The notes below the pieces were generated by a model, which saw only the letters and a program-made list of their open reading frames with translations, ran no database searches and was not told the DNA's origin. This document shows, piece by piece, positions 9,779-39,785 of a DNA stretch of 42,599 nucleotides. Origin of the DNA: a virus. The stretch lies in IMG/VR virus record IMGVR_UViG_3300025133_000237, positions 1-42,599 of that record, one strand, 5' to 3'. Position numbers and translations under genes: made by a program. Each line of letters starts with the position of its first letter. The stretch's first letter is position 1.

Positions 9779-10054
9779 TTATTTACTTGTAGTATTGTCT
9801 TTTTCTACTGTATAGTTAGTATAATTTCTTAAGTATCTAACTTGATCTAAAAGATTTAAAAGAAAATCGTTTACAAACATAAGAAACTCTCTCATTGTTT
9901 GATTTCTAAAAATATGTCTAGAAAGCATTTTAGAAATTAAACCAGAAGTTTTTGCAGAATAATCATACCTCGTGTTCTTAAGATTGTCTCTTCTATGCTT
10001 AGCTACTTTATATAACCTCTTACGCTTGTATACTAATAAATCTTTAAATAACAT
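9779..10054 (-). CDS. Small basic protein in baseplate wedge operon
   Basis: A 91-residue Lys/Arg/Tyr-rich protein, probably all helical (LLVYKRKRLYKVAKHRRDNL; FLMFVNDFLLNLLDQVRYL). Its ATG overlaps the stop codon of the gp6-like gene by one base (TAATG), indicating translational coupling. The family is not recognised. Its position between gp6-like and gp7-like genes suggests a small wedge component or assembly factor. The high positive charge could also mean nucleic-acid contact. Confidence 0.6.
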   Translation of the reverse strand: MLFKDLLVYKRKRLYKVAKHRRDNLKNTRYDYSAKTSGLISKMLSRHIFRNQTMREFLMFVNDFLLNLLDQVRYLRNYTNYTVEKDNTTSK

Positions 10055-11883
10055 TATTTTAGGGCTTGTCTATTTCCAGCTTGTACTCTAGTGTAAATTG
10101 TTCTAGGTACTGGCTCACTATCAAAATTAACACTAAGTGCAGCTTCCGCATTTATACGAGCGTCATCTATAATTACATCACCATCTCTATCTTGCCATCC
10201 GCCTCTAAAAACAGCGATCTCTTCTTTTTCCATAATTATATCACCCCATTCATCTAAACCAGCGACTTTATATGGAATTGCTGTACTTGCATCTACAGGA
10301 ATTGTTTTAACTTCTTCTATTTGTTTAAAGAAGATATACTTTTGTTTACCATTACCAATATCTTCTAATAAAACAGGCTCTTGTGGTACAACACTTACAG
10401 TTTTAGAATCATAATAACCTAATCTTCTAGCTGTCTCTTCTGTTTCAGATATAAATCTCACATTCACTGCATCAATACCTTCAATCTTTTCAAGGATATA
10501 CACAATATCAGATTTAGGTAGCTTATCTCTTCTTGTTACATTTAACATGTAATTACTTACAGCCTCTCTAACATCTGTAAATATTTCTTGTCTTGTATGT
10601 CCTTCAAAATATCTAATATTGATATCCATACTATATTTTCTAACTTTAGGCTTCACAAAAACAACTTCAGTTGTAACCATTTGTTGGCCACTGTCTTGAA
10701 TTACTTGTGACATTTTATCATATTCATTTTGGTCAAAGAACATTTCGTTTTCTGGAATAGAAAAATAATCTTGAGAAGCTAATAGTTTTCTTTTAACATC
10801 AGGGACTGCAAAAATATAGATAACATTATCATCATCTAAATATTGGTCTTCTGTTGTATTGTAAGCGTCCACATAAGAGAATAAACCATATCTTGATAAG
10901 AAATACTCATAGTTATCCGGCGTCGCCAGAACAAACGATTTGGACGTTAGAGGCGCCATTAATTTTGTAAACTCAGTTGATTCAGAATCAGCTCCCATTT
11001 TAGGAGAAGATGTAATATTAATTTCTAAGTATTCATTTAAATCCCATTCGTCTCCGTTTGAATCAGTACCTTCTGAATTCCATTGGAATACTAAGTCTTG
11101 TCCATCTGCTAAGTTACCTAAAGCACCAGAATGTTTTACATATTCTACTGCAATATCAGCACCTGCTTGAGGTATTGCTCCAAAATTACCAGTTCCAAAA
11201 TAAATATCAAGTCCACCTGAAATACCAGTCTTAAGTATAAATCCTTTTTCATCACTTAATAAGTCATACATAGAATCGTGCTTGCTCCACTTCTCACCAT
11301 TAACAGAAACACTCACCATTGAATGATCGGTTAACTTATTAACTTTTACATTATATGATTGCATTGATTCTCCGGTTGAAGTAAATGTTTGTTCTTCAAA
11401 TTCACCTTGTATAATTGCAGTTTTAATTTTATACTTATTAGACTTTTCTAATCTATATCTTTCCTTTGAAGTCAATAGAGTATACTTCATTCCGTTTTGT
11501 TCACACTGTAATTCGGCTCTTGCATCAATATTTAAACCAGTACCTGCAAGCTTACCTAAATCAGCACCAACCTTCCATCTAAATTCTATTTCGCCAGTTG
11601 CTGCAAAACCTCTAGTAGCATCATGGCCAGCTAATCTCGATAAACCATAAATAGATTCTGGTTGTTGCGCAGTGTATATGTTTTGTTCAACAGTAGAGTC
11701 TTCTATGTAGAACATGATTAATTCACCGAGCTCAGCCATTACATTTACTATTTGAGCAAATGGGGATGCTTCGGTAAAAAGCGTATTAGCACGTTTATAT
11801 ACCCTTGAGATATATGTACGAGAATCTGCCTTGATTTGGTTCGCGGTAGCTCTTAACGTGCTTAAAAATTTTAATTCAGCCAT
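10054..11883 (-). CDS. Baseplate wedge protein, gp6/baseplate J-like
   Basis: A 609-residue protein of the gp6/baseplate J group, which forms the ring joining the wedges around the tail hub. The N-terminal helical part (LRATANQIKADSRTYISRVY, then a region around FAQIVNVMAELGELIMFYIE) fits gp6. Residues about 228-258 carry the baseplate J pattern (YFGTGNFGAIPQAGADIAVE, then a Gly-Asn turn). Residues about 420-470 (RQEIFTDVREAVSNYML, then DIVYILEKIEGIDAV) match the C-terminal domain typical of the family. T4 gp6 is about 660 residues. It follows the gp25-like gene by 7 bases, the conserved order in T4-like phages. Confidence 0.85.
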   Translation of the reverse strand: MAELKFLSTLRATANQIKADSRTYISRVYKRANTLFTEASPFAQIVNVMAELGELIMFYIEDSTVEQNIYTAQQPESIYGLSRLAGHDATRGFAATGEIEFRWKVGADLGKLAGTGLNIDARAELQCEQNGMKYTLLTSKERYRLEKSNKYKIKTAIIQGEFEEQTFTSTGESMQSYNVKVNKLTDHSMVSVSVNGEKWSKHDSMYDLLSDEKGFILKTGISGGLDIYFGTGNFGAIPQAGADIAVEYVKHSGALGNLADGQDLVFQWNSEGTDSNGDEWDLNEYLEINITSSPKMGADSESTEFTKLMAPLTSKSFVLATPDNYEYFLSRYGLFSYVDAYNTTEDQYLDDDNVIYIFAVPDVKRKLLASQDYFSIPENEMFFDQNEYDKMSQVIQDSGQQMVTTEVVFVKPKVRKYSMDINIRYFEGHTRQEIFTDVREAVSNYMLNVTRRDKLPKSDIVYILEKIEGIDAVNVRFISETEETARRLGYYDSKTVSVVPQEPVLLEDIGNGKQKYIFFKQIEEVKTIPVDASTAIPYKVAGLDEWGDIIMEKEEIAVFRGGWQDRDGDVIIDDARINAEAALSVNFDSEPVPRTIYTRVQAGNRQALK

Positions 11884-11890
11884 TATCTAT

Positions 11891-12247
11891 TTATCTTAAA
11901 TTTACTTGGATTATGTACTCGTTATTAATAGTAATATCAATGTAAGCAACATCTCGTACTTCACCTCTATAAAATTCAACTGCAACTTGAGTAGAATACT
12001 TACGTGCCAGTGGTACATAATTCATTAATTGGCTTTCGATTTCGTTCTTAATTTGATATTCACTTTGGTTTAATCCATAGATCATATCATCTAAGTTACA
12101 GCCAAAGCCAGGCTCTCCTAGTACATCTCTTTTTCTGGTAAATAAAACAGTTTCAATTTGAGCCATTAATTGCTCTATCTCTCCGTTGTTTACGACCACA
12201 TTAGTTTGATAATTAGGGTCACCTATATGTTTAATATAAAAATCCAT
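11891..12247 (-). CDS. Baseplate wedge protein gp25-like (gpW/gp25 family)
   Basis: A 118-residue protein close in size to T4 gp25 (132). This conserved wedge core protein sits beside gp6 and helps start sheath assembly. The family core is visible at 38-58 (RKRDVLGEPGFGCNLDDMIY) and includes Glu45-Pro46, which corresponds to the EP(R) core of gp25; the Arg is replaced by Gly. The remaining helix (EIESQLMNYVPLARKY) and final strands (VAYIDITINNEYIIQVNLR) also fit. It sits directly upstream of the gp6-like gene, the usual order in contractile-tail phages and related injection systems. Confidence 0.88.
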   Translation of the reverse strand: MDFYIKHIGDPNYQTNVVVNNGEIEQLMAQIETVLFTRKRDVLGEPGFGCNLDDMIYGLNQSEYQIKNEIESQLMNYVPLARKYSTQVAVEFYRGEVRDVAYIDITINNEYIIQVNLR

Positions 12248-12266
12248 TTATATATGTATTCGACTT

Positions 12267-13109
12267 TTAAGAGTGGAACATCCAGTCCACTCCTTCGTCT
12301 CCTTTTATCTCTTCAATAATAGACTCTAACTCGGTGTCTCCCATGTCTTTTATTGCGTCGTAGTCAAATTCTACATTACCAGGTAATGCAAACTTGAAGA
12401 TCCCTAATTTAGCACCTAGGGATTGCTTAATCTTAGCTGAACAGTATCTAAAGAATACTTCATCTTCGTATAACGCACAATCTTCAATTGTCTCGTATAC
12501 ATTTAATACAACATCACTTTTAGGAGTATCTCCTAATATCTTTAAATCACCATTTAATCTAGTATAACTAAATGAAATAGGATTTTCCATAATTTGTCTA
12601 GATAGATCTGCCATAGAAGCATTCAATACATAATACTGTAATTCTTCTGCAGCTTCTGCAGGTCCTGATCCGTCATACATTCCTCTAAACAACATTTTTT
12701 CTAATGCAAAATCACCGCCATGTTGAAATCTTACATCTAAGCCAGCGCCAGTCGAATTATATCCAGATCCAGTGTCATATACACCAAATACAGAAAACAC
12801 TGCACCAGACCCATCTGCCTCAGCTCCAGGTAGGTTTAACGATCTATTAGATTTAAAATATGCAGAGTCGAATACATCTTTAGGTATTACATAATAATTC
12901 TCTCTAACAGAATCTTCATAGTTTTTATAGAACCATTTTTTAGCTCTTTTAACTATATTAATTATTTCTCTTTGTGGCAAATTAACAGGAACCATACAAG
13001 CTCCAGTCATGTCATCTCCCAGTTCTGATAAAAATGCATTAAGACATCCAGTACCGAAATCTCTTTCAGTTCCTAGATTAGTATCATTACCTTGTCTAAT
13101 TTCACTCAT
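12267..13109 (-). CDS. Virion structural protein, possibly neck or baseplate-associated
   Basis: A 280-residue soluble protein. After a polar N-terminus it has a helix with aromatic residues (REIINIVKRAKKWFYKNYED) followed by YYVIPKDVFDSAYFK. This layout recalls head-tail connector or neck proteins of large myoviruses, but the resemblance is too weak for a named call. The middle is Gly-rich (PGAEADGSGAVFSVFGVYDT). The acidic C-terminus (ELESIIEEIKGDEGVDWMF) looks helical. It lies between the amidoligase and gp25 genes, separated from them by 1 and 19 bases, so it is part of the wedge operon. Confidence 0.55.
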   Translation of the reverse strand: MSEIRQGNDTNLGTERDFGTGCLNAFLSELGDDMTGACMVPVNLPQREIINIVKRAKKWFYKNYEDSVRENYYVIPKDVFDSAYFKSNRSLNLPGAEADGSGAVFSVFGVYDTGSGYNSTGAGLDVRFQHGGDFALEKMLFRGMYDGSGPAEAAEELQYYVLNASMADLSRQIMENPISFSYTRLNGDLKILGDTPKSDVVLNVYETIEDCALYEDEVFFRYCSAKIKQSLGAKLGIFKFALPGNVEFDYDAIKDMGDTELESIIEEIKGDEGVDWMFHS

Positions 13110-13110
13110 T

Positions 13111-14424
13111 TTATGATTTTATTTTTGTGCTTACTATTACTTCAGTTTCTTCAGAAAATCTAGCATTGTTTCCAACTCCTCCCTCTCTAAAAATACCGCC
13201 ATTCATTTTGCCTTTAAAGATACCGTCTCTTCCAAAGACATAACAGTTTTCTAATGTACAACTTCCATGAACATAAGAAGATTCTACTTTAGAATCATTA
13301 ACTTCACATCCCTGGTATAGTTGAGAGCGTACAATTTGAGCTCCCTCTATTTTACCACCGTAAATTGCACTATTTTCAATATTTCCAGATATTTCGCAAT
13401 TGATAAACTCAAATCCATCTAACAAGTAAGCTGTTCTAAAAACACCGTCCTTTACTTGTACTTGACTATAATCAGAATCGTAGTTAATTGTACCCGATTC
13501 CATTGAGCCATGTGCAAGTAAATCTAGAACTTTAGTTTTAAATCTATCCCATTGGACTTTAATTACTTGTTCGTCAGATTGCAAATCTACTAATATATTT
13601 ATCTCCTTCCAATATTTATTTATCGCCCTATGATCTTTTAGCATTTCCATCAGAGGTTTATTCTTTTCTAAAATTCGTTTTAGCTCAATTTTATTAGCAG
13701 GAGAATATACTGGATTGTAACAAGAGTTCCATATTGACATAATAAAACCATTAGCTAAATGTAAAATATCATCTAATCGTTTCTCATAATCTTTACCACC
13801 AATATATCTAAACTCTAAATAATTCTTTTGTGCCTTTTCAAAGTTAATACCATAATATTTAGTATTAGCAAATGTAAAGTTATCTGAATTAATTAAGTTT
13901 TCATTATAGTAAAAGGCTTCATTCTTAGGCATAACCCATTTAATAGATTTTGCATAAGTTGAATTCTCTCTATTTGGAAAATACTTGTAAATTCGATTCT
14001 CGTCAAATTCTAAAATAAATTTAAGAACTGACATTTTAGTAATCATATTCGGATCTTCTAAATAATCCGGATTAAAAGACATATTAAGGTGAATTGAAGC
14101 ACGGTCATTTGTATAACCATTGGTATCAATCCATCTTAACATTTTTTGAATTACAACTCTAGCACTATAGTATGGCATTGGGCCAGTAACTAGCTCAATT
14201 AATCCCTTACCACCTGACATATCAGGTTCCATTTTAAAAACATCCGCCGTTGGTTGGAAGTCAGAATGTGCTTTATCTTCTAGTTTTATCTTTCTATTTA
14301 ATAGATCAGATAAAGAAGTTTGTGTTTCTTTAAGTTCTAAGTTTGAATAGAATTCAAATTCAACACCAATTTGGCTTGCGTTTAAAACAGAGTGCCTATC
14401 TGAAGATCTTGTTAATTTCTGCAT
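13111..14424 (-). CDS. Amidoligase-like enzyme fused to a C-terminal beta-helix-like repeat domain
   Basis: A 437-residue protein. The N-terminal 300 residues fit the glutamine-synthetase-fold amidoligase family (PF12224-type), ATP-dependent ligases thought to form peptide or isopeptide bonds. The visible motifs are GVEFEF (20-25), with metal-binding acidic residues; IELVTGPM (76-83); ASIHLNMSF (109-117), corresponding to the family HxHv strand; and YGINF then YLEFRYIGG (about 191-210), corresponding to the family N and EfR strands. From about 325 to 410 the sequence becomes a string of short repeats (FINCEISGNIENSAIYGGKI; VNDSKVESSYVHGSCTLENC) like pentapeptide or hexapeptide beta-helices. 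The gene follows the S1 gene after 54 bases holding an inverted repeat and a promoter-like box. The substrate is unknown. Confidence 0.72.
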   Translation of the reverse strand: MQKLTRSSDRHSVLNASQIGVEFEFYSNLELKETQTSLSDLLNRKIKLEDKAHSDFQPTADVFKMEPDMSGGKGLIELVTGPMPYYSARVVIQKMLRWIDTNGYTNDRASIHLNMSFNPDYLEDPNMITKMSVLKFILEFDENRIYKYFPNRENSTYAKSIKWVMPKNEAFYYNENLINSDNFTFANTKYYGINFEKAQKNYLEFRYIGGKDYEKRLDDILHLANGFIMSIWNSCYNPVYSPANKIELKRILEKNKPLMEMLKDHRAINKYWKEINILVDLQSDEQVIKVQWDRFKTKVLDLLAHGSMESGTINYDSDYSQVQVKDGVFRTAYLLDGFEFINCEISGNIENSAIYGGKIEGAQIVRSQLYQGCEVNDSKVESSYVHGSCTLENCYVFGRDGIFKGKMNGGIFREGGVGNNARFSEETEVIVSTKIKS

Positions 14425-14478: not shown

Positions 14479-15771
14479 TTAAGGAAGCTTTAAAAAGACT
14501 TTCATTGTAGCTTCATCGATCCTAGTAATTTGTACACTTATAGAATCTCCAGCATTATAGTCATTAAGATCTAAATCTCTTAATTCACTAATATGTAAAA
14601 GTCCAGTTACGCCTTCTTCGATATTTACAAAAATACCGTAGTCCTTTTTAGTCTTTACTTTAGCTTCAACCACCGATGGTATTTGATACCTAGATGAAAT
14701 ATCTTGCCATGGATTTACTGTTGATGACTCTTTTTGAGTTAACGTAATTTTAGTATTACTAATAATATCTTTTACAAAGAATTTAATTGGATCGCCTGGT
14801 TTAATATCTCTAGCTTTAAATTTAGCTTGAGTATCTTCATCTAATTCATTATTATGAATCATTCCAGTTAAACATTTATCAAATTCTACAAATACTCCGT
14901 ATTTTGCAGTTCCAGTTACATTACCTTCTTTTTCAACACCTCTATTATCTTTTAGATCTTGGATGGCAGATGGAATTAATGCTTGTAAATATTTTCTATG
15001 TGATACTACTATTGTTCCTCTATCTGATGAGAAGCTTACAGGAACAACATATATTTCTTCTCCAATAATAGAACTAAAGTCAGATAATTTATTAATACCT
15101 GCAAGTGAACCTGGCATAAAGCAATCAACTCCTTGTACTCTTACAATATAGCCACCATTTTCAATCATGTTTTTAACTTGACCAATCCAAGCAGTATTAC
15201 CTTCTTCGATAGCTCCTCTAAGATCCATAAATGTTTTGTGCTTGACACCTCCAGTAATAGTTCCAGTTAATGTACCTTTAGTTTCTGTAATTAATACAGC
15301 AGTTTCATCTCCTGGTCTAAGTTGTCTAACTTCTTCAGATTCTTTATTAGCTTTTACATAAACTAATTCTCTATAACTAATATCTATAGTAATAAAGTTT
15401 TGATCGACTGCATAAATAACGCCTTCGTGAATTTCACCCTCAAATAATTCAGGTTTAATATCTACGCTATGATCGCATATCTTATCATAAAGCTCTTGAG
15501 CATAAGGCTCTCTAGAATATACCTTATCACCATCTCTCGTCTTAATATGTGGGTTAGGTTTTCTATATCTAGTAGGACATGTGCTTTCATAAGCATCCCA
15601 TAGGAACTCACCAGATTCATCGTAAAACTCTGAAAAATCATTTCCAGTTTTTACGGCATCATTCGCCTCGTTAAATTGTTGTGTTGTTTCTTGAACTGCC
15701 TCTTTGACTAGTTCTACGGTAGGTGCCTCTTTGGCTACAGTGTTTATTCTGCGTCTTTTTTGATCTGACAT
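14479..15771 (-). CDS. Ribosomal protein S1-like protein with four S1 domains
   Basis: A 430-residue protein. After about 100 polar residues come four OB-fold S1 RNA-binding repeats at roughly 109-170, 190-258, 280-346 and 364-430. The last two carry classic S1 patterns: GNVTGTAKYGVFVEF followed by LTGMIHNNEL, and VKTKKDYGIFVNI followed by GVTGLLHISEL. Bacterial bS1 usually has six repeats, so this is a shortened relative. In bacteria S1 binds single-stranded mRNA leaders and delivers them to the 30S subunit; phage-encoded S1 homologues are known in some environmental phages. It starts after an A-rich leader with a late-type box upstream. It may favour phage mRNAs that lack Shine-Dalgarno sites, or act as a general RNA-binding protein. 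Confidence 0.88.
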   Translation of the reverse strand: MSDQKRRRINTVAKEAPTVELVKEAVQETTQQFNEANDAVKTGNDFSEFYDESGEFLWDAYESTCPTRYRKPNPHIKTRDGDKVYSREPYAQELYDKICDHSVDIKPELFEGEIHEGVIYAVDQNFITIDISYRELVYVKANKESEEVRQLRPGDETAVLITETKGTLTGTITGGVKHKTFMDLRGAIEEGNTAWIGQVKNMIENGGYIVRVQGVDCFMPGSLAGINKLSDFSSIIGEEIYVVPVSFSSDRGTIVVSHRKYLQALIPSAIQDLKDNRGVEKEGNVTGTAKYGVFVEFDKCLTGMIHNNELDEDTQAKFKARDIKPGDPIKFFVKDIISNTKITLTQKESSTVNPWQDISSRYQIPSVVEAKVKTKKDYGIFVNIEEGVTGLLHISELRDLDLNDYNAGDSISVQITRIDEATMKVFLKLP

Positions 15772-15796: not shown

Positions 15797-15807
15797 TATT
15801 ATATATC
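15797..15807 (-). promoter_or_regulatory. Late-promoter-like box GATATATAATA
   Basis: The minus strand reads GATATATAATA, identical to the boxes at 716, 34656 and 38320. It lies 25 bases before the S1 ATG and overlaps the stop codon of the preceding gene at its first base. This placement would allow separate late expression of the S1 gene. Confidence 0.5.
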
Positions 15808-16175
15808 TACTTAAGTATGCGTTTTATCCATGCATACTTTTTTCTAGTTTTTAGGTAATCTAAGTTATCATCATTATCAAAGGCTTCTCTTTCGAAAGAA
15901 ATATTATAGTAAGATTTCTTGCCATAAAAAAATAGTTTAATAAACCACTCCAATACATATAAAATATAGAACGGCAAAACTAAAACCTCTTCTTGTTGTT
16001 TAATATGAATAGACTCGTGGTTAATAATTCTTTTAGCTTTATTTTTAAAATAAGCAGTGGAATTATATCTTTCTCTTAAAACCACAAATGGCCAAAGTGT
16101 AATACCACCAATTCTCATAAACCAGCTAATGTTATTTAAAAACTTATCGCTATACTTAACAATCGGTGTTTTCAT
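15807..16175 (-). CDS. Zincin-like protein with HESIH motif and a hydrophobic segment
   Basis: A 122-residue protein. It holds the zinc-metallopeptidase signature HESIH at 53-57 (INHESIHIKQQEE). A hydrophobic stretch at about 65-84 (VLPFYILYVLEWFIKLFFYG) is likely a membrane segment or a buried helix. FEREAF at 94-99 supplies an acidic candidate third zinc ligand. It resembles small HExxH proteins of Bacteroidota whose function is unknown to me. It follows another zincin gene by only 5 bases and precedes the S1 gene. A lysis, envelope-modification or moron-type role is possible; catalytic activity is inferred from the motif only. Confidence 0.65.
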   Translation of the reverse strand: MKTPIVKYSDKFLNNISWFMRIGGITLWPFVVLRERYNSTAYFKNKAKRIINHESIHIKQQEEVLVLPFYILYVLEWFIKLFFYGKKSYYNISFEREAFDNDDNLDYLKTRKKYAWIKRILK

Positions 16176-16180
16176 ATAGT

Positions 16181-16189
16181 TTATATATC
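16181..16189 (-). promoter_or_regulatory. Late-promoter-like box GATATATAA
   Basis: The minus strand reads GATATATAA, only 5 bases before the ATG of the HESIH protein. If it acts as a -10 element the transcript would be nearly leaderless, so this copy could instead be part of the AT-rich translation start. Confidence 0.3.
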
Positions 16190-16645
16190 TTCTTCAAATG
16201 AGGGTACAAAAAACTGATCCGTTAATTCTTCAGCGTGTATTTCCCATGGCCTTGCTCCCCATGGCACATTCCATGAACTCGCTTCACCCTTCCAAAAGAC
16301 TACACCAAAACCTTCTATTAAGTATCGTCTATCAAATTGTAAAACATGTACTAATTCATGAAACATTGTTCTTTGCAAAATATCAACAGGATAAATGCTA
16401 TTTAATTGAATCAAATATACATCTTCTTTAATTTGAGTAGTTAAGCCTATGATATTAAAACGAAGAGGTGCTATTTTAGTTATTATATATGGAGACCTTC
16501 TAGGAAGTGGCTTTAAAATAGAATCAGTTACAAATTTAAGTATGCTCTTATTATTCAATACTTCCTTGACTGTTGCGGTTTTTCTAAAAGTAGTAATACG
16601 TTCCTTTGCCGCTGCGATTTTATTCTCTTCAGCAAAGTTAATCAT
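16181..16645 (-). CDS. Zincin-like metallopeptidase, HELVH motif
   Basis: A 154-residue soluble protein with a classic gluzincin-type site: HELVH at 96-100 (FHELVHVLQFDRRYL) and downstream acidic residues at 135 and 139 (PWEIHAEELTDQF) as candidate third zinc ligands. The N-terminal half has a helical start and a beta strand pair (YIITKIAPLRFNIIGLT) usual before the active-site helix in minimal zincins. It is the first minus-strand gene after the divergent region 16646-16823 and is followed after 5 bases by a second zincin. The substrate is unknown. It could trim virion or host proteins, or partner the amidoligase downstream. Confidence 0.7.
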   Translation of the reverse strand: MINFAEENKIAAAKERITTFRKTATVKEVLNNKSILKFVTDSILKPLPRRSPYIITKIAPLRFNIIGLTTQIKEDVYLIQLNSIYPVDILQRTMFHELVHVLQFDRRYLIEGFGVVFWKGEASSWNVPWGARPWEIHAEELTDQFFVPSFEEDI

Positions 16646-16823: not shown

Positions 16824-17222
16824 ATGAGTAAATTTAAAGTAAACGAAGTAAAATGCAATGGAGTAGGTGGTCATGGTTACCAGGCTGTTCTTAAGCATAA
16901 AGACGCAATCCTAGAAATCTGCCAAGATGTTAGAGATCTTATAGGTATTGAAAAACTATGGGAACTAGCAACAGCAGATCCTAAGGTTAACTATCACCAA
17001 GGAACAAGATTTAATTCTGTAGAAGATAATGCATTCCGACTTATTACTGGAATTGCAAATCATGTATCTGAATATATGCCAAACAGTGAGTTGGTTGAGA
17101 TGCATGTAGGAGCCATTCTACCGATGTTAACAATGGAAGATAAAGTAACACTTGTTGTTGATGCTTGTAGAGACTGTGCATCAGCAGACCATTGGTATAC
17201 TTTCGAAAAAGACTGGGGTTAA
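16824..17222 (+). CDS. Unknown protein, sole plus-strand gene
   Basis: A 132-residue soluble protein of unrecognised family. It begins MSKFKVNEVKCNGVGGHGYQ and looks mostly helical afterwards, with acidic and hydrophobic alternation (NSELVEMHVGAILPMLTMED). It has three Cys (KCNG, EICQ, DACRDC counts two close together) and a C-terminal Trp- and Tyr-rich tail. The start follows an A-rich leader (AATTAAAATAAATAATAT). It is transcribed against all neighbours, has its own host-like promoter box, and its TAA overlaps the stop codon of the convergent 616-residue gene within the 4 bases TTAA at 17219-17222. This arrangement is typical of a moron or host-takeover gene, but no function can be assigned. 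Confidence 0.75.
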   Translation: MSKFKVNEVKCNGVGGHGYQAVLKHKDAILEICQDVRDLIGIEKLWELATADPKVNYHQGTRFNSVEDNAFRLITGIANHVSEYMPNSELVEMHVGAILPMLTMEDKVTLVVDACRDCASADHWYTFEKDWG

Positions 17223-38861: not shown

Positions 38862-39785
38862 TTATACTAATTGTGTTGCGAATTGTTTCACATATTTTTG
38901 AACTGCTCGTTCTTTAGCTTTAGCCTCGAGTTCGATATCGAGATCAAGACCAAAGTCATTGATTGGTTCATATATGTAATCGGCGTGAGCCCTTGCCATT
39001 ACTGTCGCATCTTCATGAAGTCGTTTACATGAAGAGTAGTGGCATAGTTGTTTAATTCCTTTTGGCCAAGTAGTAGAAGCCAACTTAAGAGCTTCCTCTT
39101 GAGTCAATTCTCCTGGATGGCACCAGTGGTGATGGTAGTCAAATGTAATAGGAATACCAATCTTATTGTGAATACCTACATACAGATCTTCTGTTGCATA
39201 TTGTTTTTGCTTGTCGTCATTCTCAACAACTAGACGTCTACGAACTGAAGCGTCAAGTAGATGGAAGTTATCTACGAATCTTTGCATTGCAACATCTTTA
39301 CCACCTTGTGTAGTATTGACATGAATGTTGATCGCAGCATAAGGAGTACGTGGTAGACCCATTAGGTCAAATATTTCACCATGCTTGTTGAGGTCAGCAA
39401 TAGATTTGGTGACTACGTTTTCATTTTTAGATGCGAGGACATCGAATGGTCCAGGGTGGAATGTAATCCTCTGACCGTACTCCTTAGCTAGATCGCCACA
39501 TTCTTTTAGAATAGTTTTGATAGTTTTGAAATCCTTAAGATCTTCGAACTTATACTCGGACATCCAAGGCATAATATCAGAAGACATACGATATAGTTTA
39601 AGACCATTAGCTTCATTCCATTTAATAATGGTACGTAGATCCCTTACATTTTGTACAATAAGTTCTGAAGCGTAGTCCACACCTTTAGCCATAAAGGTAC
39701 GTTTAATCATAGAACGATTTGTAGTGATTGAAGGCTTTTGCTCTCGAAGAGCCATGTTGATACAACAATATCCGTAATTTGTCAT
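38862..39785 (-). CDS. uvsE: UV damage endonuclease UvsE (UVDE)
   Basis: A 307-residue TIM-barrel endonuclease that nicks DNA 5' of UV photoproducts, starting alternative excision repair. The family opening GYCCIN is present at 5-10, and LKLYRMSSDIMPW at 62-74. Metal-binding candidates are His110 in RITFHPGPFDVL, His155 in INIHVNT, Glu188 in LVVENDDK, Asp216 and His219 in TFDYHHHWCHP, and His249 in LCHYSS, all in the expected order. The length matches bacterial UVDE (about 300 residues). Its presence suggests exposure to sunlight. It is transcribed with small accessory genes. Confidence 0.92.
   Translation of the reverse strand: MTNYGYCCINMALREQKPSITTNRSMIKRTFMAKGVDYASELIVQNVRDLRTIIKWNEANGLKLYRMSSDIMPWMSEYKFEDLKDFKTIKTILKECGDLAKEYGQRITFHPGPFDVLASKNENVVTKSIADLNKHGEIFDLMGLPRTPYAAINIHVNTTQGGKDVAMQRFVDNFHLLDASVRRRLVVENDDKQKQYATEDLYVGIHNKIGIPITFDYHHHWCHPGELTQEEALKLASTTWPKGIKQLCHYSSCKRLHEDATVMARAHADYIYEPINDFGLDLDIELEAKAKERAVQKYVKQFATQLV

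Follow-up and report, generated by a model that had tools for sequence, protein, structure and literature searches.

A phage-encoded bS1-type protein with a predicted ribosome-docking half in a conserved locus of probable Bacteroidota phages

Ribosomal protein S1 (rpS1) has been described in huge phages, where a role in initiation together with missing Shine-Dalgarno (SD) sites was proposed and the presence of rpS1 was reported to be linked to missing SD; whether the phage protein is a 'true' rpS1 was left undecided (Al-Shayeb et al. 2020, PMC7162821). The bS1 of E. coli is anchored on uS2 by an N-terminal helix (Phe5, Phe9), by Lys43, which enters the uS2 zinc pocket, and by Phe79 (PMC10123108). 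Domains 1-3 of the E. coli protein are essential, and rpsA without domains 5-6 is viable, with 30S initiation complexes only slightly affected (PMC3858243). Bacteroidota ribosomes have their anti-SD tail sequestered by bS21, bS18 and bS6, and added bS1 doubled the reaction amplitude of initiation on an SD-less mRNA in F. johnsoniae (PMC9976891). Adenines at -12/-13 promote initiation in Bacteroidetes and were proposed to be bound by bS1; its domain 4 is close to nt -12 to -15, where the A-rich element is found (PMC6847099). When Bacteroidota ribosomes choose start sites without SD, the A-rich leader is suspected to be read by bS1.

The window, by which we mean the whole 42,599-base stretch of DNA that was analysed, is a linear IMG/VR record (IMGVR_UViG_3300025133_000237), i.e. 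a fragment, with 34% G+C. It encodes baseplate proteins (J-like, gp25-like and gpV-like), a head-tail adaptor, a helicase, a dCMP deaminase and a UvdE endonuclease, with nearly all genes on the minus strand, and is part of the genome of a contractile-tailed phage. The UV-endonuclease UvdE (38862-39785, E = 2.6e-59) is a DNA repair gene in a phage. An alternative genetic code is unneeded, as long ORFs are found under table 11 and the stops TAA, TAG and TGA are all used; the Lak relatives were translated with table 15. The genes of the locus are:

14479..15771, minus strand: phage bS1-type gene, a 430-aa ORF with an ATG start (Pfam S1, phmmer, Foldseek)
13111..14424, minus strand: Amidoligase_2-like gene immediately downstream of S1 (Pfam, 4.4e-5)
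10054..13109, minus strand: head-tail adaptor (Ad2), gp25-like and baseplate J-like genes, downstream and co-directional, in an order kept in relatives

Pfam S1 (PF00575) matched four stretches of the 430-aa product (whole-protein E = 1e-24), three of which individually reached E <= 1e-3 in a six-frame search. An AlphaFold model (mean pLDDT 75, pTM 0.44) likewise contains four OB folds with good local confidence (residues about 112-171, 194-257, 280-345 and 364-428), and the four S1 repeats that a sequence-only reading had placed at 14479-15771 are thus confirmed. The relative placement of the domains in the model is uncertain, as expected of a flexible chain. The reading frame is intact in relatives with 50-80% identity and dN/dS against close relatives is ~0.12-0.22, hence S1 is a real gene under purifying selection. 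Directly upstream of it are two small metallopeptidase-like genes (15807-16175 and 16181-16645; M56-like, PHROG 'protease'), which are found in some relatives only. The sole clear plus-strand gene of that region (16824-17219, 132 aa) has no Pfam match, and its product is kept at 57-89% identity among close relatives.

Searches place the protein with bS1. The top phmmer match in PDB is E. coli bS1 (4e-38, residues 108-428), a profile search returned bS1 first (1e-52), and among NCBIfam models bS1 (5e-43) is far ahead of PNPase (3e-14) and RNase R (2.5e-7). Using the predicted structure, Foldseek found 30S-bound bS1 chains as the best solved structures, with 9gut, an mRNA-delivery complex, at the top (5e-27). 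Scores and fold together rule out an S1-domain nuclease, Tex or PNPase and bear out the bS1-type identity assumed in the sequence-only reading. The curated full-length bS1 cut-offs were missed, with 141 bits for TIGR00717 (cut-off 577, which most control genomes also missed) and 147 for NF004952 (cut-off 524). Under the NCBIfam/TIGR00717 rule the shorter and diverged phage protein would be classed as a bS1 homologue, not an equivalog. Identity to any cellular bS1 found is only ~25%, the bacterial sequences having been taken from PLSDB, from INPHARED and from a Pseudomonadota draw. The family is without a clear model in PHROGs, and no defence-system model matched the protein.

To assign the single domains we used domain models D1-D6 built from twelve six-domain bacterial bS1, for which the controls (Enterococcus and Bacteroides proteins) scored as expected. 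The elements of the protein, from the N-terminus to the C-terminus, are:

15637..15771, minus strand: N-terminal tail, residues 1-45, pLDDT < 50, probably disordered, starting with a conserved basic stretch
15586..15606, minus strand: FLWDAYE, residues 56-62, the Bacteroidota-bS1-type motif FxWxx[YF], assigned from motif counts in relatives
15472..15516, minus strand: SREPYAQELYDKICD, residues 86-100, the SRExYAQ block and pre-OB helix (91-100), from conservation and the AlphaFold model
15370..15372, minus strand: Arg134, aligned with E. coli bS1 Lys43 (alignment A2)
15247..15450, minus strand: OB-A, residues 108-175, orthologue of bS1 domain 1 (D1 16.7 bits, other domain models <=7.3)
14986..15204, minus strand: OB-B, residues 190-262, orthologue of bS1 domain 2 (D2 36.7 bits, others <=10.1)
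14728..14949, minus strand: OB-C, residues 275-348, RNA-binding type, D4/D5-like (D5 35.7, D4 27.0, D3 11.0 bits; query residues 272-348)
14482..14700, minus strand: OB-D, residues 358-430, RNA-binding type, D4/D5-like (D5 48.3, D4 37.0 bits)

By these scores the phage S1 retains the ribosome-docking pair (D1, D2) and two RNA-binding domains. Invariant residues are Y291, G292, F294 and H306 in OB-C and Y378, G379, F381, H393, S395 and E396 in OB-D, with which the protein ends; no OB domain lies beyond. The protein may not be a simple C-terminal truncation of a six-domain bS1, since OB-C is closer to D4/D5 than to D3, though it can also be aligned co-linearly with E. coli D1-D4 (phmmer). The same domain matching was found in close relatives and broadly in LR756500, with D1/D2 signals weaker or mixed in the largest phages (some Mahaphages), and in Lak it holds for D2 and the third domain only. 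The Lak S1 (L087, L118) stops after the third OB domain and has no Lys43 equivalent, while the Bacteroidota motif and an SHESYAQ block are retained; it is a further reduced variant.

Residues 1-107, before the first OB domain, were absent from the sequence-only reading and hold the most family-specific conserved block. The tail starts with MSDQKRRRI (family consensus MSxKKRxRI). The FxWxx[YF] motif is present in 76 of 76 distinct close relatives (Y in 72, F in 4) and in Lak, and was detected in all five Bacteroidota bS1 compared and in none of the ten other bS1, a small non-Bacteroidota sample; it does not occur in the 10,129 aa of the other window proteins. Variants include FNWDAYENG (Bacteroides bS1), FNWHNF (PDB 9zcd), FLWDAYES and its variants (phages), and FNWTPYEDG or FDWSPYDDG (Lak). 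Within the sample compared the motif thus appears specific to Bacteroidota bS1. Between motif and helix lies a phage-specific conserved block (about residues 63-89), its conservation ending in SRExYAQ, which is present in 76/76 distinct relatives. Helix 91-100 of the model corresponds in position to the helix with which E. coli bS1 stacks on uS2 (PMC10123108). At the Lys43-aligned position, 75 of the 76 distinct relatives have Arg and one has Lys; the huge LR phages have Lys there and Lak has neither (alignment A2). E. coli Phe5 and Phe9 have no one-to-one alignment in the phage S1. Together, the D1/D2 matches, the Arg/Lys and the motif in 76/76 show that the ribosome-anchoring N-terminal part is retained, which the sequence-only reading had named as support for its proposal. 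The uS2 protein itself was encoded in none of the seven phage records examined, so the phage S1 would have to dock on host uS2.

In a tree of the D1-D2 region, all 18 phage S1, including those of Lak and the LR7565xx records, form one clade with 100/100 support and a long stem, separate from cellular bS1 and not nested in any sampled host group. We take the LR7565xx and LR745206 records to stem from the 2020 huge-phage study. The predicted clustering with bS1 therefore stood at the family level only, and within it the phage proteins are a deep clade outside the sampled hosts. This single deep clade, its long stem and the ~25% identity rule out recent host capture. AU tests of the clade placed beside given bacterial phyla rejected no grouping (p-AU 0.27-0.49), and the Bacteroidota motif is a better hint to the source group than the tree. 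Cellular contamination was also considered and discarded, as an IMG/VR search with a Bacteroidota bS1 query returned no relative.

At least 539 IMG/VR stretches encode relatives of this S1, so the statement that phage S1 homologues are uncommon was wrong for uncultivated phages. Lak and the 460-735 kb phages match most closely in INPHARED (29-44% identity), and the remaining matches are weaker bS1-like pieces, several of them apparently bacterial sequence. The amidoligase gene lies downstream of S1 in all 160 loci checked, with a gap of 54-1000 bases (median 60); the C-terminal part of its product is repeat-rich in appearance. The order S1-amidoligase-adaptor-gp25-baseplate J is constant in relatives, and S1 is near the adaptor also in LR756500. 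A bS21 gene accompanies S1 on five of the 16 longer contigs (G002, G005, G006, G022 and G023), a minimum given that contigs are fragments, and in three of the five huge phages tested (LR745206, LR756504 and LR756501). The two bS21 sequences counted carry a Tyr at 54-55, which may be the Tyr54 that has been discussed in bS21 from Bacteroidetes. S1 is absent from the related Bacteroidota phages PTm1, pT24, MA9V-1 and MaF61, and from PAU.

The large structural protein and baseplate J of the window match only Lak, the huge LR phages, jumbo phages of Tenacibaculum, Chryseobacterium and Flavobacterium, and PAU, with one further phage matched by baseplate J. Since these structural genes are common essentially only to Bacteroidota-linked phages and PAU, the host is very likely a member of the Bacteroidota; the FxWxx[YF] motif points to the same group. 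A host within the Flavobacteriia would be a guess. 'Moraphages' are an aquatic, Lak-related jumbo-phage lineage with Flavobacteriia predicted as hosts, in a paper in which the word 'ribosomal' does not occur (PMC12619734); this lineage may include the phage of the window.

SD sites precede 4 of 38 window genes (shuffle mean 2.4, p about 0.2), which does not exceed chance, and the leaders have an A content of 0.52 against 0.35 at internal ATGs. Leader A content is 0.51-0.54 in S1-bearing phages (relatives 0.54, Mahaphages 0.53) and 0.51, 0.48 and 0.51 in the S1-less PTm1 (L131), PAU (L132) and MA9V-1 (L133), and leaders are SD-poor in S1-bearing and S1-less phages alike. The sequence-only reading had taken A-rich, SD-less leaders as pointing to S1; the three S1-less controls have equal leaders and rule them out as evidence for the phage protein. 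Because S1-less relatives share these leaders, they are a property of translating in the host group and not of S1, and S1 is not required for translating such messages. The carriers do lack SD sites, which is not diagnostic as their S1-less relatives lack them too, and the published correlation between rpS1 and missing SD (PMC7162821) is probably confounded by host phylum.

We propose, with a probability of about 0.62, that the phage bS1 docks on the host 30S subunit and promotes initiation of late phage mRNA. The N-terminal half (FxWxx[YF], pre-OB helix and OB domains 1-2) would bind uS2 on the platform of the Bacteroidota host's 30S subunit, and the remaining two OB domains would hold single-stranded A-rich mRNA just 5' of the start codon, where initiation cannot draw on SD pairing. 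Ribosome binding is what we infer from the conserved docking half. As E. coli S1 without D5-D6 is viable and the anchor is intact, a four-domain phage S1 is expected to work on the ribosome. The gene runs in one direction with the neighbouring baseplate and adaptor genes, a location that makes late expression probable; for phage bS21 such timing has been measured (PMC9723584). On the ribosome it would add to host bS1, which is loosely bound, or take its place, and abundant phage mRNAs would be initiated more often, with phage bS21 as a partner in some relatives. Late timing, competition or exchange with host S1 and a preference for phage mRNA are likewise predictions of the proposal. A bolder version is possible, if doubtful: in a widespread lineage of Bacteroidota jumbo phages S1, with bS21 in some of them, could be a phage-specific initiation platform that rebuilds the mRNA-binding side of the host ribosome and sorts phage from host messages without SD. 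The sorting would be done by the D4/D5-type RNA-binding domains together with the conserved phage-only stretch at residues about 63-100.

The conservation pattern bears on whether the protein acts on the ribosome at all. A bS1 relative that acts away from the ribosome, where it chaperones RNA or coats and stabilises abundant phage transcripts, would fit the two intact RNA-binding-type OB domains and the long divergence from host bS1, and a role 'on or off the ribosome' was allowed by Al-Shayeb et al. (PMC7162821). We consider it unlikely, as the docking domains and the uS2-contact residue, which a chaperone would not need, are among the most conserved parts. The kept docking half, with fewer RNA-binding domains than in six-domain Bacteroidota bS1, could also describe a host shut-off factor, a shortened S1 that fills the uS2 site and blocks host initiation. 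This is distinctly improbable given that OB-C and OB-D have invariant RNA-binding residues, unexpected in a plug, that E. coli S1 without D5-D6 retains function (PMC3858243), and that phage leaders resemble those of the host group (PMC6847099), so that the phage would be hit too.

Gene position bears on two further possibilities. Qbeta and T4 use host bS1 in nucleic-acid machines (Qbeta replicase, T4 RegB; PMC13157829) and Foldseek also matched bS1 within the Qbeta complex, so the phage S1 could be a subunit or cofactor of a phage polymerase or RNase; with the gene in a baseplate module beside an amidoligase and no polymerase or RNase neighbour, we regard this as very unlikely. A virion or assembly protein, or one packaged and injected, is hardly credible: in relatives the gene is always found alongside the adaptor, gp25 and baseplate J genes, and LR756500 has it close to the adaptor, which would suit such a role, but the S1 genes of Mahaphages and Lak are located away from these structural genes and the protein matches no structural-protein family.

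The reading we prefer, a phage bS1 acting in initiation on the host 30S, has its nearest precedent in the rpS1 of huge phages (PMC7162821), which belongs to the same family (tblastn 29-44% identity, one clade with 100/100 support). The group of the window differs from it as a distinct lineage (50-80% identity within) with the constant S1-amidoligase-adaptor-gp25 order. A ribosome-steering role is reasonable and already published in outline; by showing D1/D2 orthology, a residue equivalent to Lys43 and the Bacteroidota motif, the analysis addresses, for this family, the 'true' rpS1 doubt of 2020. The family is common (the IMG/VR stretches above) despite the missing PHROGs model, and a compact, conserved and naturally short S1 is a probe for SD-less start selection and virus-specialised ribosomes.

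With Bacteroidota bS1 (rpsA, about 590-600 aa, six S1 domains) the phage protein shares FxWxx[YF], the pre-OB helix, D1, D2 and RNA-binding OB domains, whereas it has four OB domains, ~24% identity, its own insert (about 63-89) and a basic N-terminal tail. The bS1 of Microcystis phage PhiMa05/MaAM05 (PMC13157829) is likewise phage-encoded, but falls on a long branch among cellular bS1 with Firmicutes-type sequences, outside the phage S1 clade, is without the Bacteroidota motif and adjoins bL21 and bL27. The bS21 of Bacteroidetes phages (Chen et al. 2022, PMC9723584, a paper from which terms for S1 are absent) is a protein other than S1, but the logic proposed for it is the same: a ribosomal protein of phage origin acts at the mRNA exit platform of a Bacteroidetes ribosome, and is encoded near structural genes and expressed late.
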